NCBI GenBank assembly: GCA_030683815.1
Contig: JAUXPJ010000019.1
Span: 114,787-178,786, forward strand
Length of the DNA stretch: 64,000 bases
DNA from: Flavobacteriaceae bacterium
GTDB lineage: Bacteria > Bacteroidota > Bacteroidia > Flavobacteriales > Flavobacteriaceae
Direction: 5' to 3'
Shown here one piece after another: positions 6,189 through 11,396 of this stretch; the stretch's first letter is position 1, and every line of letters begins with the position of its first letter. The translations under genes and the position numbers were made by a program. The notes under the pieces were generated by a model. That model saw nothing but the letters and a program-made list of their open reading frames with translations. It had not been told where the DNA came from and did not search any database.

Positions 6189-8618
6189 TTATTTTCTTTC
6201 AGTAATTCTCAATAAATCTCCAAAAACACCTCTGGCAGTAACTTCTGCACCTGCGCCGGCTCCCTGAATAACAATAGGATTATCGCCATAGGACTCTGTA
6301 TAAATTTCAAATATAGAATCAGCGTTATTAAGTTGACCCAACGAACTTTTTTCAGGGACGGATATAAGTTTAACTTCTAAACTTCCTTTATTTTTTTGTA
6401 AATCTCCCGACAAATCACCTATATATCTTAACACATGTTTCTCCTTCTGGTCTTCTTTTATTTTTTGATAAACAGGATTTAACTCTTCTATTCTTGATAA
6501 AAAATCTTGTGTACTTCCATCTTGTAAAAAAGTTGGAATTAAATTATGTATTTTTATTTCATTAAATTCATTTTGCAAATCCAATTCTCTAGCTAAAATC
6601 AATAATTTTCGAGCTACATCATTTCCGCATAAATCTTCTCTTGGATCAGGTTCTGTGAGTCCTTTGTCAATGGCTTGTTGTAATATGTCGCTAAAAGAAC
6701 TTTCTGATTCAGAAAAATGATTGAATATAAAACTTAAAGATCCGGAAAAAACGCCTTTAATACGAGTAATATTTTCGCCTGATGCATGTAATATGCTGAT
6801 CGTATCAATCAATGGCAAACCCGCGCCAACATTGGTTTCATACAAATAATTTTTATTATTCTTTTTAAGCGATTCTCTTAATTTTTTGTAGCTCAAATAA
6901 CTTTGGGTGTTGGCTGTTTTATTGGATGAAATTAAATCAAATCCATTTTCTGCCAATGGAATATAATTATCAATAAAAGTGGTGCTGGCAGTATTGTCTA
7001 TTGCAATTAAGTTTTCAAAATGATATTTTTGGGCAAACTCAATAATGTCAGTAATGCTTTTGTTGTTATTGGGAGCTTTGTCATATTCCTCTTTCCAATT
7101 ATTGGATATACCCTCTTTATTTAAAAGAATTTTTTTAGATCCTGCAATGGCAAATATGTTTAAATTGATTTCTTTTCTTTTAAGGATTTTATTTTTTGAA
7201 TTAAGGATTTGATTTATTAATGCTCCCCCAACAGTTCCCTTTCCAAAAATGGCAATATTTATGTTTTTTGAAATTCCAAAAATCTGTGAGTGGATAACAT
7301 TTATTGCTTTATTTACATTTTTATTATCGATAACTAAACCGATATTATTTCCGTTTAATGTGTTGTTAATTAATAATATATCAATATTGTTTTTTATTAA
7401 TGCATTAAATGAGGATGAAAAATTGTTAATATTCTGACCAATAATTGTAATAACAGAAACTTCTTTTTTTGAAATAATTGAACTGATGTCTTTTGTTTGA
7501 ATTTCGGCTTGAAATTCTATTTTTAAAGCGTTAACGGCTGTTTTAATATCCTTCTCTGAGATAATAAAACCAATACTTCTTTCTGATGAACCTTGTGAAA
7601 TGACACTAACACTTATTTTATTCTGGTTCATAGTAGAAAATATACGCGCGTCAATCCCTTTTTTTCCAAGTAATCCTTTGCCTTCAATATTAATAAATCC
7701 TATTTCATTTTGAACGGAAATAGATTTTACTTCTTTGTCAGTTATTTCATTATTAATTAAAGTTCCTGTGGTATTAGGGTTATAGGTATTTAAGATGCGC
7801 AATGGAATGTTCTTTTCTACTAATGGAATGATGGTTTTTGCGTGTAAGATAGAAGCACCGAAGCTTGCCAACTCGCTAGCTTCATTAAAATTTAATTGTT
7901 CAATTATTTTAGCATCACTTACCTGATCTGGATTAGCGGTGTATATTCCATCTATATGTGTATAATTCTGTACTTCAGAAGCATTTAAGTATTTTGCAAT
8001 TAAAGAAGCTGAATAATTACTTCCATTTCTTCCTAAAGTGGTGGTTTGACTGTTTTTATTCGATGTAATAAAACCGGTAACTATTGGAATAGTTTCTTCA
8101 TCAAAAGAATTGTACCAATTTACAGTATTGGTTTTGGAAAGCTCATCTAGGATTTGTGCGTTTCCAAAATTATCGTTTGTTTTTAAGAAATCTCTACTGT
8201 CAATGGTGTTGCTTTTTATTCCATTTTGGTTTAATAAAGAAGCAATCATTTTTGCGGCTAATAATTCTCCTTGTGCCAAAACCAAATCTTTTACTTTTAA
8301 ACTATAATCTTCTACCAATTTTACCCCTTCAAATGTTTTTTCCAATAAGGTAAATTCTTTATGGTAATCGATATTTTTATTGGGTTCTATTTGATATTCT
8401 TTAAATGCTTTCCATTCAACGGCATAATCTTCTCCATTTTTTGCTTTATCCAAAATGAGTTCCAAACAGTCTGTTGCATTTCCTCTGGCAGATAAAACAA
8501 TTATCATCTTCTCTTTTGAATTTATTTTGTTTTTAATGATAGCAATAACGTTTTCTATTCCCTGACCATTGGCTAGGGATTTCCCTCCGAACTTGATTAT
8601 TTTCATTTCTTCTCTCAT
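6189..8618 (-). CDS. thrA: Bifunctional aspartokinase / homoserine dehydrogenase
   Basis: The 809-residue protein fuses two enzymes of the aspartate pathway. The N-terminal aspartokinase starts at KIIKFGGKSLANG and has TTLGRNGSNYSA and a regulatory ACT region (about 300-450). The C-terminal homoserine dehydrogenase has the NAD(P) loop AIFGKGTVGGAL (about 455) and SSNKTAN, GAGLPLIDT and GVFSGSLSFIFN. It phosphorylates aspartate and reduces aspartate semialdehyde to homoserine. The first ATG (8618) overlaps the metX stop as ATGA; an alternative Met four codons later begins exactly at the family start. It feeds homoserine to the adjacent metX. Confidence 0.94.
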   Translation of the reverse strand: MREEMKIIKFGGKSLANGQGIENVIAIIKNKINSKEKMIIVLSARGNATDCLELILDKAKNGEDYAVEWKAFKEYQIEPNKNIDYHKEFTLLEKTFEGVKLVEDYSLKVKDLVLAQGELLAAKMIASLLNQNGIKSNTIDSRDFLKTNDNFGNAQILDELSKTNTVNWYNSFDEETIPIVTGFITSNKNSQTTTLGRNGSNYSASLIAKYLNASEVQNYTHIDGIYTANPDQVSDAKIIEQLNFNEASELASFGASILHAKTIIPLVEKNIPLRILNTYNPNTTGTLINNEITDKEVKSISVQNEIGFINIEGKGLLGKKGIDARIFSTMNQNKISVSVISQGSSERSIGFIISEKDIKTAVNALKIEFQAEIQTKDISSIISKKEVSVITIIGQNINNFSSSFNALIKNNIDILLINNTLNGNNIGLVIDNKNVNKAINVIHSQIFGISKNINIAIFGKGTVGGALINQILNSKNKILKRKEINLNIFAIAGSKKILLNKEGISNNWKEEYDKAPNNNKSITDIIEFAQKYHFENLIAIDNTASTTFIDNYIPLAENGFDLISSNKTANTQSYLSYKKLRESLKKNNKNYLYETNVGAGLPLIDTISILHASGENITRIKGVFSGSLSFIFNHFSESESSFSDILQQAIDKGLTEPDPREDLCGNDVARKLLILARELDLQNEFNEIKIHNLIPTFLQDGSTQDFLSRIEELNPVYQKIKEDQKEKHVLRYIGDLSGDLQKNKGSLEVKLISVPEKSSLGQLNNADSIFEIYTESYGDNPIVIQGAGAGAEVTARGVFGDLLRITERK

Positions 8619-9583
8619 TTGAAAATTGGTTTTAAAAATTGTGTAAGTTGTTCGTTCTCAATTAAAAAGGCATCATGTCCGTGGATAGATTTTATCTCAC
8701 GGTATTGGTTCTTTATTTCTAGTTGATTTAAAAGTAATTTTGTTTTTATATTTTCCTCTTTTACAAAAAATAAGTCACTATCCACAGCTATTTGAACAAT
8801 AATAGATTTTATAGGTTTAACTATTTCTTCAAAAGACAACTTTTCTGTAGTTATATCAACTGTGGTCAGTAAATGATTCATCATTAAATAGGCATTTATA
8901 TCAAACCTGTTTTTTAGTTTTTCTCCATGGTGATCTAACCAAGACTCTACATTAAATTGCTTATTAGATGCTGTTTTTGTTCGATTAAATTTTTGGGTGA
9001 AAGACTTAGGTGTTCTATAAAATAACATCGCCATTTTTCTGGCATCTTGTAAAGGATTTTTTGAGTTTTTTAATAGTTGATCTTGGACATAATTATGTCC
9101 AATAATCCAATCTGTAGATTTCCAATCAGAAGCAATAGGAATAAGGTATTTTATGAAGCCAGGCTGTAAAGCAGCCATTTCCCATGCAATGCCTCCGCCA
9201 AGTGATCCGCCTATTACTGCGTATAATTCGGTAACTCCCATTTCATTTAAAACTAAATTGAATATCGCGGCTATATCTTTTGCCGTAAAATCATTGTAAT
9301 TTTTTATGCTCTTTGCTTGATATCCATTTCCATGAATATTAAAAGCAACAACAGTGTATTTGTCAGTATTAATAACTTTGTTTTTACCAACAATTTCATT
9401 CCACCAACCTTTTTTTTTGCTGAGAAGATCTGAATTTCCCGTCAAAGCGTGGTTAACCACAACTACCGGAGCAGTATGTAATTTTTTGCCAAATACTTGA
9501 TAAGTGGTATCCAAATTTTCATATTGGATACCACTATATGTTGTGTATTTTTTTAAATTACAGGTTATTAATCTATTCATCAT
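8615..9583 (-). CDS. metX: Homoserine O-acetyltransferase-like alpha/beta hydrolase
   Basis: The 322-residue protein has the MetX fold. It shows VVVVNHALTGNSD (oxyanion region), the nucleophile elbow VIGGSLGGGIAWEMA, the catalytic Asp in AVDSDLFF and the His in SIHGHDAFLIE. It acylates homoserine, normally from acetyl-CoA, to give the substrate for the MetY sulfhydrylase encoded just upstream. It is shorter than typical 350-380-residue MetX proteins, as in many Bacteroidota. Whether the acyl donor is acetyl- or succinyl-CoA cannot be read here. Its start directly follows a 20-codon reading frame. Confidence 0.9.
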   Translation of the reverse strand: MMNRLITCNLKKYTTYSGIQYENLDTTYQVFGKKLHTAPVVVVNHALTGNSDLLSKKKGWWNEIVGKNKVINTDKYTVVAFNIHGNGYQAKSIKNYNDFTAKDIAAIFNLVLNEMGVTELYAVIGGSLGGGIAWEMAALQPGFIKYLIPIASDWKSTDWIIGHNYVQDQLLKNSKNPLQDARKMAMLFYRTPKSFTQKFNRTKTASNKQFNVESWLDHHGEKLKNRFDINAYLMMNHLLTTVDITTEKLSFEEIVKPIKSIIVQIAVDSDLFFVKEENIKTKLLLNQLEIKNQYREIKSIHGHDAFLIENEQLTQFLKPIFK

Positions 9584-9648: not shown

Positions 9649-10923
9649 TTATATTTGTTTTAATGCTTGGTCAATATCTTCTTTCAAGTCTTCAATATCT
9701 TCTAATCCAACCGATAGTCGGATTAAATCTTGGCTTACTCCTGCAGTTAATTGTTGCTCTTCAGTAAGTTGTTGATGAGTAGTGCTTGCCGGATGAATTA
9801 TCAAAGATTTGGTATCTCCAATATTTGCAAGTAAAGAGAATATTTTTGTTGAATCAGTCAGTTTCTTAGCTGCTTCAAATCCGCCTTTCAAACCAAACGT
9901 AACCACACCACTTTGTCCGCTTGGCAAGTATTTCTGTGCCAATTCAAGGTATCTGCTGCTTTTTAATCCGGGATAGTTTACCCATGAAATTTCATCTTTC
10001 GTTTGTAACCATTGAGCGAATTTTAAGGCATTTTCCGAATGTTTCTTTATTCGAACTTCCAAAGTTTCTAAACCTTGAATAATTTGAAAGGCGTTGTACG
10101 GACTTAAAGCCGCTCCGAAATCTCTTAAACCTTCTATTCTCAGTTTTACAATAAATGCTGTTTCGCCTAAAGTTTCCGAGTATTTTAGCCCATGATAACC
10201 TTTGGAAGGCTCAGTGAATTCTGTAAATTTTCCACTTGTCCAATCAAAAGTTCCAGCATCAATAACTACACCTCCCAAAGATGTTCCTTGACCTCCAATA
10301 AATTTTGTTAAGGAGTGAATTACAATATTGGCTCCATATTTTATAGGATTCAATAGCGCAGGAGTAGCAACTGTGTTATCAACAATCAAAGGAATCTTAT
10401 TTGCTTTTGCAATTTTTGCGATTTCTTCGATATCAAGAACATCTAATTTTGGATTTCCAAGAGACTCTATAAAAATAGCTTTGGTATTCTCTTGAATTGA
10501 ATTTTGAAAGTTTTCTACATTATCAGCATTCACAAAACTTGTTTCTATCCCTAATCTTGGTAAAGTTACATTGAGTAAATTATAGGTTCCTCCATATAAA
10601 CTGCTCGAAGAAACAATATGATCACCAGATTTAAATAAGGTTAAAAAAGTTGTGGCAATTGCGGAAGTACCAGATGCAAAAACTACCGCACCAATTCCAC
10701 CCTCAATAACTGCCAATCTTTTTTCAAGAATATCATTGGTTGGATTGTTTAATCTGGTATAAATAAATCCAAATTCTTTTAATCCAAATAAATTGGCAGC
10801 ATGGTCAGTATCGTTAAATACATATGAGGTAGTTTGATAAATTGGAACAGCTCTCGTTCCTTGGGTTAATTTTGTGTCGTGCCCTGCATGCAGAGCGTTT
10901 GTTGTTTTAGTTAAATTTGACAT
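9649..10923 (-). CDS. metY: O-acetylhomoserine sulfhydrylase (PLP-dependent)
   Basis: The 424-residue protein belongs to the Cys/Met-metabolism PLP family. It has QTTSYVFNDTDHAANLFGL, YTRLNNPTNDILEKRLA, FASGTSAIA, the IVDNTVATP strand and HSLTKFIGGQGTSLGG with the PLP-binding Lys. The length and the long segment after the Lys fit O-acetylhomoserine aminocarboxypropyltransferase rather than cystathionine gamma-synthase (about 380 residues). It makes homocysteine by direct sulfhydrylation. It is the first structural gene of the metY-metX-thrA unit and lies behind two tandem attenuators. Confidence 0.92.
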   Translation of the reverse strand: MSNLTKTTNALHAGHDTKLTQGTRAVPIYQTTSYVFNDTDHAANLFGLKEFGFIYTRLNNPTNDILEKRLAVIEGGIGAVVFASGTSAIATTFLTLFKSGDHIVSSSSLYGGTYNLLNVTLPRLGIETSFVNADNVENFQNSIQENTKAIFIESLGNPKLDVLDIEEIAKIAKANKIPLIVDNTVATPALLNPIKYGANIVIHSLTKFIGGQGTSLGGVVIDAGTFDWTSGKFTEFTEPSKGYHGLKYSETLGETAFIVKLRIEGLRDFGAALSPYNAFQIIQGLETLEVRIKKHSENALKFAQWLQTKDEISWVNYPGLKSSRYLELAQKYLPSGQSGVVTFGLKGGFEAAKKLTDSTKIFSLLANIGDTKSLIIHPASTTHQQLTEEQQLTAGVSQDLIRLSVGLEDIEDLKEDIDQALKQI

Positions 10924-10957
10924 TTTATTATGTTTTTTTAAATATTCAAGAATAAAA

Positions 10958-10993
10958 AAAGTCCCTTTGGTTAGGTATTACCGAAGGGACTTT
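10958..10993 (-). terminator. Second (promoter-distal) attenuator terminator before metY
   Basis: A ten-base stem AAAGTCCCTT / AAGGGACTTT (10958-10967 with 10984-10993) is followed on the minus strand by TTTTTTT. Its loop contains GGTAATACC (minus strand of 10974-10982), perfectly complementary to GGTATTACC at the 3' end of leader peptide 2 (11028-11036). That pairing extends two more bases into the 5' arm after one mismatch and would compete with the terminator. Confidence 0.85.
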
Positions 10994-11019
10994 AAAACTG
11001 CTGTTAGTTTATATATCTT

Positions 11020-11112
11020 TCAATTTGGGTAATACCATAGCATTATGTAGATTATCATGCACATATACATTTGTTGGAAGCAACAACATACTATGGTTTG
11101 GTTATTTATCAT
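11020..11112 (-). CDS. Leader peptide 2, Cys/Met-rich, upstream of metY
   Basis: A 30-codon minus-strand frame starts MINNQTIVCCCFQQ and continues with MYMCM and more Met codons, ending in TGA at 11020. It has four Cys (three consecutive) and six Met residues including the start. It lies between the first and second terminators, and its last codons contain the sequence that can pair with the second terminator. Cys plus Met codons fit a sensor for the product and substrate branch of the downstream methionine operon. Confidence 0.78.
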   Translation of the reverse strand: MINNQTIVCCCFQQMYMCMIIYIMLWYYPN

Positions 11113-11137
11113 TTTTATTAATTATTATTCAAAAAAA

Positions 11138-11162
11138 AAGCCTTTGCAATATGCAAAGGCTT
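11138..11162 (-). terminator. First (promoter-proximal) attenuator terminator before metY
   Basis: A perfect 11-bp stem AAGCCTTTGCA / TGCAAAGGCTT with a three-base loop is followed on the minus strand by at least seven T. Its 5' arm (GCCTTTGC, 11153-11160) can instead pair over eight bases, with one G-U, with GCGAAGGC near the end of leader peptide 1 (11200-11207). This gives a clear antiterminator. Confidence 0.88.
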
Positions 11163-11186
11163 CGTTAATTATATTTTTTGTCTAGT

Positions 11187-11258
11187 TTATACAATTATGG
11201 CCTTCGCGTAAATTTCTTTACACATCATACAAGCCATATTTGTAGTTTGTTTTTTCAT
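11187..11258 (-). CDS. Leader peptide 1, Met/Cys-rich, upstream of metY
   Basis: A 23-residue minus-strand frame starts MKKQTTNMACMMCKE and ends TAA at 11187. It clusters three internal Met and two Cys codons within six codons, directly before a terminator. The codons right after the cluster (GCG AAG GCC) form the antiterminator arm. The start lies ten bases after a good Bacteroidota promoter. It is the first of two such peptides in the leader of metY-metX-thrA. Confidence 0.82.
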   Translation of the reverse strand: MKKQTTNMACMMCKEIYAKAIIV

Positions 11259-11267
11259 CTGATGGTG

Positions 11268-11296
11268 CAAATTTAATATAATAATTTAGATTTCAA
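11268..11296 (-). promoter_or_regulatory. Promoter of the metY-metX-thrA operon
   Basis: The minus strand has TTG at 11296-11294, an 18-base spacer and TAAATTTG at 11275-11268. This matches the Bacteroidota consensus TTG-N17-20-TAnnTTTG. It lies just upstream of leader peptide 1. Confidence 0.72.
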
Positions 11297-11396
11297 AATT
11301 TATTTTCAAATAAGGGATAAGGTTTCCGAGTTTTGTAAAACAGGGAGTTATTTTGTAAATTTTCTGGATGTAAGAAAGAAAAGAACTAATTCCAAA

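Follow-up and report, generated by a model that had tools for sequence, protein, structure and literature searches.

Ribosome-mediated attenuators are known for the trp, his, thr, phe, leu, and ilv operons. RNA-level control of methionine genes is known mainly through SAM riboswitches and T-boxes, in which SAM or uncharged tRNA binds the RNA directly, and the SAM-I riboswitch controls methionine genes in response to supply. The trp, his, thr, phe, and ilv attenuators are named in the accessible portion of PMC1262725, where conserved RNA structures are reported to be lacking upstream of actinobacterial methionine operons, as are conserved terminator hairpins in mycobacterial cys leaders, and the S-box is given as the methionine RNA control elsewhere. 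Cysteine-responsive, leaderless short ORFs encoding poly-Cys have been described in mycobacteria (Canestrari et al. 2020, as cited in PMC13236596), and the excerpted text of PMC13236596 terms their mechanism translation attenuation. The Salmonella mgtCBR leader carries tandem attenuators for ATP and proline and is termed a singular example in the excerpt of PMC3641672. For Flavobacterium psychrophilum, the accessible part of PMC9723704 mentions "strong clues" of leader-peptide attenuation upstream of amino-acid biosynthesis operons, none of which is named there; one for methionine may be among them. We found no methionine attenuator described in the literature searched, in which subscription journals and preprints are mostly missing, and none appears in the available portions of PMC9723704, PMC7366714, PMC1262725, PMC8079986, PMC2965389, PMC13236596, and PMC3641672.

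Here, we analysed a stretch of 64,000 nt from Flavobacteriaceae bacterium (GCA_030683815.1, contig JAUXPJ010000019.1, positions 114,787-178,786, forward strand), hereafter the window, which carries a leader before metY-metX-thrA. With a probability of roughly 0.88, this leader is made up of two successive leader-peptide attenuators, both complete and both conserved in their reading frame and pairing, each predicted to let transcription of metY-metX-thrA pass when a ribosome stalls at its Met/Cys codons. By architecture, it would best be read as ribosome-mediated attenuation with two serial checkpoints. The attenuator features present are a product-codon-rich ORF (twice), a terminator before the first gene, a mutually exclusive 2:3 helix, and, in element 1, a 1:2 helix. 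The features of the window are as follows.

11268-11298, minus strand: promoter of Bacteroidota sigma-A type, with TTTTG at 11298 and the -7 box TAAATTTG at 11275-11268
about 11264 to 10924, minus strand: metY-metX-thrA leader, with promoter, ORF 1, terminator 1, ORF 2, and terminator 2
11187-11258, minus strand: ORF of leader peptide 1, 23 codons, MKKQTTNMACMMCKEIYAKAIIV, the first predicted Met/Cys sensor, with the ATG at 11258 and the stop ending at 11187
11205-11224, minus strand: protector hairpin 1:2 of element 1, UGUGUAAA (11224-11217) with UUUACGCG (11212-11205)
11200-11207, minus strand: region 2 of element 1 (GCGAAGGC), 5' half of the predicted antiterminator, near the 3' end of ORF 1
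11137-11163, minus strand: terminator 1 (regions 3 and 4), 12-bp stem, 3-nt loop, and T tract
11020-11112, minus strand: ORF of leader peptide 2, 30 codons, MINNQTIVCCCFQQMYMCMIIYIMLWYYPN, the second predicted Met/Cys sensor
11028-11036, minus strand: region 2 of element 2 (GGTATTACC), 5' half of the predicted antiterminator, near the 3' end of ORF 2
10958-10993, minus strand: terminator 2 (regions 3 and 4), GGUAAUACC at the top, T tract, -16.9 kcal/mol
9649-10923, minus strand: metY, O-acetylhomoserine/O-acetylserine sulfhydrylase (TIGR01326, 644 bits, cut-off 495), with the ATG at 10923
8615-9583, minus strand: metX-like homoserine acyltransferase (TIGR01392, 194 bits, under the cut-off of 500)
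6189-8618, minus strand: thrA, fused aspartate kinase/homoserine dehydrogenase (NF006959, 747 bits, cut-off 726)
5314-5196, minus strand: histidine-codon leader MNLTQLHHHLSHNCSQAIWK before hisG, with a 13-bp terminator and an 8-bp 2:3 helix, -11.0 kcal/mol

An earlier note on this DNA had proposed a promoter, two Met/Cys-rich peptides, and two terminators before metY, and each of these parts was found in its place. It had also proposed that the 3' end of each peptide pairs with its own terminator, and both helices are present. The 2:3 helix of element 1 joins GCGAAGGC at 11207-11200 with GCCTTTGC at 11160-11153 (8 bp, one G-U, -11.7 kcal/mol), and that of element 2 joins GGTATTACC at 11036-11028 with GGTAATACC at 10982-10974 (9 bp, -13.8 kcal/mol). 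In the window, this second antiterminator engages the loop of terminator 2 and the upper part of its 5' arm; in several relatives it extends further down that arm. The UGUGUAAA arm of the protector (11224-11217) coincides with the end of the Met/Cys codons of ORF 1. Because the ATG of peptide 1 follows the -7 box by only 9 nt, the mRNA is predicted to be nearly leaderless. Terminator 1 was also picked up by a separate terminator listing, from which terminator 2 is absent; the loop limit of the listing is 8. The model R2 matched the window at 10951-11068 with 98.8 bits, the window copy itself being among the rows from which R2 was built.

The leader fold was more stable than 100 shuffles (z -7.05). 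At least one ORF that begins with ATG, spans 15-45 codons, and has 4 or more Met/Cys within 9 residues occurred in 72 of 5000 dinucleotide shuffles of the leader, and none of the 5000 held two. Of 199 family genomes, 136 gave MetY matches (139 in total), and 130 metY loci were inspected over 700 nt upstream each. The 9 matches left out include those cut by contig ends (G010, G069, and G188), one in two pieces (G055), one with an in-frame stop (G202), and G192 together with the second copies in G191 and G021, at 49-53% identity. The screen for the feature required an ORF of 8-50 codons in which 9 residues include 4 or more Met/Cys, plus a terminator-like hairpin starting at most 120 nt from its stop. 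Upstream of metY, it picked out 15 of the 130 loci; the opposite strand of the 130 gave 0, as did all five shuffled sets. By the same definition, 10 of the 15 loci are tandem, and L024 additionally has a shorter second ORF. Element 1 stands without element 2 at metY in L103, L112, and L146, and all 10 matches to element 2 in the 199 genomes (E <= 1e-5) adjoin a match to element 1.

For a wider survey, a covariance model of element 1 (R1) was built from 14 of the 15 loci. E <= 0.01 was rejected as a sign of presence, since 278 of 397 family genomes pass it, which corresponds to the background near 30-48 bits. The threshold was set at 60 bits, a score reached in 33 of the 397 genomes. Among the 80 named metY loci kept by the genome scan, 24 carried the ORF plus terminator, 17 of these in tandem, and 23 of the 24 reached 60 bits with R1. 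Carriers among the named loci are Lutibacter, Flavobacterium, Salinimicrobium, Kordia, and some metagenome bins; the cultured Flavobacterium cheniae and Salinimicrobium terrae are two of the 24. A draw across the phylum gave R1 matches (E <= 1e-6) in 21 of 395 genomes, in only 2 of 171 genera; the distribution of the attenuator is therefore patchy. In a BLAST search of 40 relatives with the whole leader, the four strong matches were the own genome, two of the same genus, and one of another genus (72%), and the other 23 rows were weak and short.

Tandem attenuators were also seen in L183 and L184 (Saprospiraceae), L188 (Chlorobi), and L232 (Bacteroidetes), with taxa known from metagenome-bin labels only; their MetY proteins are 74-81% identical to the query. 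The gene and its leader may have been transferred, or the labels may be wrong. R1 matches of 51-69 bits occur in G269, G270, G097, G268, G254, G040, and G063, some of which may be divergent copies. Within the window's own genome, weak R1 matches (29.7-35.7 bits) at L290 and L291 were rejected as ordinary terminators; further weak matches are the histidine leader before hisG and the opposite strand of the leader itself.

Copies of element 1 (30, alignment A4) and element 2 (24, alignment A5) were aligned, with L029, one of the 15 loci, excluded from all alignments because its copy is degenerate. The ORF 1 columns contain 53 gap runs, 51 of which are multiples of 3. Met/Cys codons of element 1 account for 170 of 653 codons in frame versus 68 and 32 of 623 when the frame is shifted. 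In 24 of the 30 copies, region 2 starts 18 nt ahead of the stop codon, and the last Met/Cys/Trp codon, ignoring the final six residues of the peptide, starts 12 or 15 nt before region 2 in 29 of the 30. Such frame-keeping indels, frame-specific codons, and a near-fixed stop distance are the mark of a putative translated ORF tied to RNA structure. Of the 30 copies, 24 have TAnnTTTG at most 80 nt 5' of peptide 1, and none of 24 has it between the two terminators; this consensus is named in the accessible part of PMC9723704.

The helices were examined in the same alignments. In element 1, the terminator 3:4 was paired in 98.5% of cells over the 30 copies, with two-sided changes in 6 of 11 pairs, and the protector 1:2 in 205 of 240 cells, with 20 two-sided cells and a maximum of 202 in 2000 whole-arm shuffles; both values are partly selected for, because the model used to find the copies contains these two helices and not 2:3. 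Two-sided changes were already present in 7 of 17 predicted pairs among the 14 rows that predate the model. The 1:2 helix joins the last Met/Cys or Met/Trp codons to the start of region 2. The antiterminator 2:3 was paired in 87.6% of cells with 18 two-sided cells, and none of 500 shuffles reached either value; sliding its partner by 1-3 columns gave 33-51%. Its two-sided changes are confined to 2 of 7 pairs, and no excess was observed in the count of two-sided pairs (377 of 500 shuffles as high) or of pair types (494 of 500). Its outer pairs fail in 8 and 13 of the 30 rows. A helix 2b:3b lengthens the antiterminator, and 6 of 5000 permutations were as low in mean energy. A crude helix finder favoured other helices in L021 (the window), L086, and L112.

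At the core of element 1, regions 2, 3, and 4 change as a triple, with the combinations GA/TC/GA, GC/GC/GC, AA/TT/AA, AG/CT/AG, and GG/CC/GG. A MetY tree covering 26 of the 30 loci requires at least 9 changes of the two central bases in region 2, at least 5 in region 3, and at least 4 in region 4. Watson-Crick matches in both 2:3 and 3:4 were kept at the core in 20 of the 26 rows. The 6 incomplete rows show a mismatch between regions 2 and 3 (L163), a G-U between them (L156, L157, and L180), a G-U between regions 3 and 4 (L152), or a gap (L175).

In element 2, the 2:3 helix was paired in 84.8% of cells, and slid controls gave 30-48%. Its 27 two-sided cells are spread over 8 of the 12 pairs (0 and 1 of 500 shuffles equal). 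Examples are UAUUGCC with GGCAA and UAUUACC with GGUAAUA. In both elements, the mean energy of the cognate 2:3 duplex was below all 5000 permutations. Terminator 2 was paired in 92.3% of cells over the 24 copies, with 25 two-sided cells in 7 of 12 pairs; two of five measures fell within the shuffles (two-sided pairs, 51 of 500; pair types, 200 of 500). In the window, element 2 has a clear 1:2 hairpin (-17.6 kcal/mol); over 10 of 11 rows, the crude helix finder gave no consistent counterpart.

We then folded element 1 with a ribosome-sized mask. When the mask covered the Met/Cys codons, the pre-terminator RNA folded into 2:3, as did the pre-terminator RNA without any ribosome. When the mask was placed at the stop codon, no 2:3 appeared in the pre-terminator RNA and the terminator formed. 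The minimum-energy fold of the full-length RNA kept the terminator in every state, the stalled ribosome included. Since the finished RNA prefers the terminator in all states, the antitermination decision would therefore be kinetic and made during transcription.

In the proposed mechanism, transcription would start only a few bases ahead of peptide 1, with a ribosome engaging immediately. With ample charged Met- and Cys-tRNA, the ribosome would reach the stop codon and cover region 2, and the terminator would form. With scarce charged tRNA, it would stop in the Met/Cys run, holding region 1 and leaving region 2 free. Once region 3 is transcribed, the 2:3 antiterminator would form before region 4 exists, and the polymerase would pass, only to meet a second copy of the same test in element 2. 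With this second checkpoint after the first, transcription of the operon would therefore need two passes. As a counterpoint, the AUG of the leader itself would also be initiated more slowly when methionine is short.

Copies of the element were found before other genes. In L276, element 1 precedes genes for serine acetyltransferase, a cysteine-synthase-type PLP enzyme, and sulfite reductase subunits, and a tandem stands before metY as well. In L277:3763-4117 (minus), element 1 is followed by SAM-I and then by a metX-thrA fusion, placing two sensors in one leader. In L278, it precedes an O-succinylhomoserine-sulfhydrylase-like gene just under the model cut-off. These cysteine/sulfite, metX-thrA, and sulfhydrylase-like targets fit Met/Cys control. 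Element 1 at L181:1501-1689 (73.9 bits) lies directly before a TonB-receptor plug-domain gene, which suggests that sulfur-nutrient import is under the same control. A weak tandem at L275:7166-7450 (minus; 42.6 and 44.8 bits), with the peptide MNKMRNMMCCKHYLWNELA, precedes an EamA transporter and an amino-acid permease.

R1 matches of 58 and 56 bits were also seen 3' of metY, at L279:3886-4011 (minus), L222:2896-3021 (plus), and L236:2896-3021. All of these downstream copies keep the hairpins, and in L279 and L222 the Met/Cys run of peptide 1 is lost (MKFNICNTFKVAQDNSCGSLIA). They have possibly been re-aimed or have decayed.

A leader as strongly structured as this one could also house a metabolite-binding riboswitch, for example of a new SAM or homocysteine class, acting on both terminators with the ORFs incidental. 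SAM riboswitches are indeed the rule at this gene in the relatives checked: among 115 metY loci lacking the attenuator, 96 have SAM-I before the gene (19/20, 20/20, 18/20, 17/20, 15/20, and 7/15 by batch), versus 0 of 15 with it (Fisher's exact test, 1.1e-10, with loci treated as independent of kinship). The attenuator had been put forward in the earlier note as an alternative to SAM riboswitches, and this contrast bears it out at metY. In the 15 loci that carry the attenuator, searches up to E = 1 detected neither SAM-I nor SAM-II on the metY strand in front of the gene. However, no Rfam family matched the window at its gathering score. Indels keep the frame, Met/Cys codons lie in one frame, and the distance from region 2 to the stop is near-fixed, all of which speaks against incidental ORFs. 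Moreover, no conserved unpaired core was seen in A4; what is conserved is the Met/Cys run and the helices. We therefore consider a riboswitch very unlikely. The T-box model likewise matched neither the window at the gathering score nor any of the 15 attenuator loci up to E = 1. Rfam amino-acid leaders matched below threshold only, with Phe_leader at 30.1 bits (L112) and Thr_leader at 26.0 bits (L144), the cut-off being 55 for both. In the genome of the window, one SAM-I was found, before metH, and SAM-II precedes metK. SAM-I lies after metY in the attenuator loci L024, L027, and L029, and at L087:584-643, SAM-II instead of SAM-I is located directly upstream of metY on the metY strand.

With a ribosome-mediated attenuator as the preferred reading, methionine together with cysteine is the predicted signal, judging from the codons and the genes. 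A real attenuator might mainly sense cysteine, or a general slowing of translation, rather than methionine. The Cys content of peptide 2 is about 10% of residues (at least L170 being read in the wrong frame there), and the L276 copy precedes cysteine and sulfite genes. Against this, all 30 first peptides contain at least 2 internal Met, and 8 of them lack Cys, making methionine the constant residue of peptide 1. Because of these 8 peptides, and because 14 of the 30 contain Trp, cysteine sensing by element 1 is not general. Trp sensing was set aside: UGG pairs with UCC/CC in 1:2, and the presence of Trp in 14 peptides is explained by the fit of this codon to the 1:2 pairing. The hisG leader in the same window is a predicted attenuator of the same plan with histidine codons, and codon content therefore tracks the operon, which also weighs against this reading. 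Cysteine or general slowing as the main signal is unlikely. Of the Met/Cys specificity proposed in the earlier note, methionine would be the constant part, with Met in every first peptide, and cysteine sensing would not hold throughout. A different use of the same residues would be metal sensing (for example of copper), in which a metal-bound nascent chain stalls the ribosome and the hairpins respond. From general chemistry, peptides like MCCCMMCMCM could bind soft metals, but the spacing of Met and Cys varies, Cys is missing from the 8 peptides above, and the identified genes behind the copies mostly serve sulfur amino-acid synthesis and transport. This possibility is extremely improbable. 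Ribosome-mediated attenuation, as the earlier note had read the leader, is supported by the ORFs, the exclusive helices, the covariation, and the frame-keeping indels. The conservation it had predicted was observed at 15 of 130 family and 24 of 80 named metY loci, and two-sided changes were present both in the terminators and in the peptide-to-terminator pairings.

We lean towards a broader view in which a mobile class of Met/Cys attenuators has displaced SAM-I from metY in many members of the Flavobacteriaceae, and perhaps outside this family, and has also reached cysteine, homoserine, transporter, and receptor genes. The doubled form would act as a serial AND gate that sharpens the response to starvation. 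Together with SAM-I and SAM-II, charged tRNA for protein synthesis and SAM for methylation would be sensed separately. Related bacteria carrying either a SAM sensor or a translation-based sensor at metY offer a clean natural experiment. This comparison addresses why a cell would sense methionine for protein synthesis instead of SAM, and how sensors replace each other. Whether a series of attenuators makes a response sharper could be tested directly on the doubled form. The promoter, the ORF, the two terminators, and the predicted antiterminators are recognisable and can be used to annotate sulfur amino-acid leaders in a large, little-studied phylum.

Compared with the known systems, the metY leader shares with the trp, his, thr, phe, leu, and ilv attenuators an ORF rich in product codons, mutually exclusive 1:2, 2:3, and 3:4 helices, an intrinsic terminator, and a biosynthetic operon. 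It differs from them in its predicted methionine (with cysteine) specificity, its two serial units, and its occurrence in Flavobacteriaceae. With SAM-I (RF00162), it shares the gene and the position; SAM-I senses SAM directly and is absent before metY in the 15 attenuator loci. The mycobacterial poly-Cys ORFs are likewise short and Cys-rich, near the 5' end of the mRNA and before cysteine genes, whereas the metY leader has two intrinsic terminators and Met as the constant residue. As in mgtCBR, a single leader contains two short ORFs that are each under separate attenuation-like control; the mgtCBR units answer different signals, whereas those of the metY leader share a codon bias and would form a serial double check. 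The leader-peptide clues from F. psychrophilum are also flavobacterial and also concern amino-acid biosynthesis operons. Attenuation itself is known; what appears new here is the predicted methionine specificity and the doubling, at genes that are usually under SAM-I in Flavobacteriaceae.
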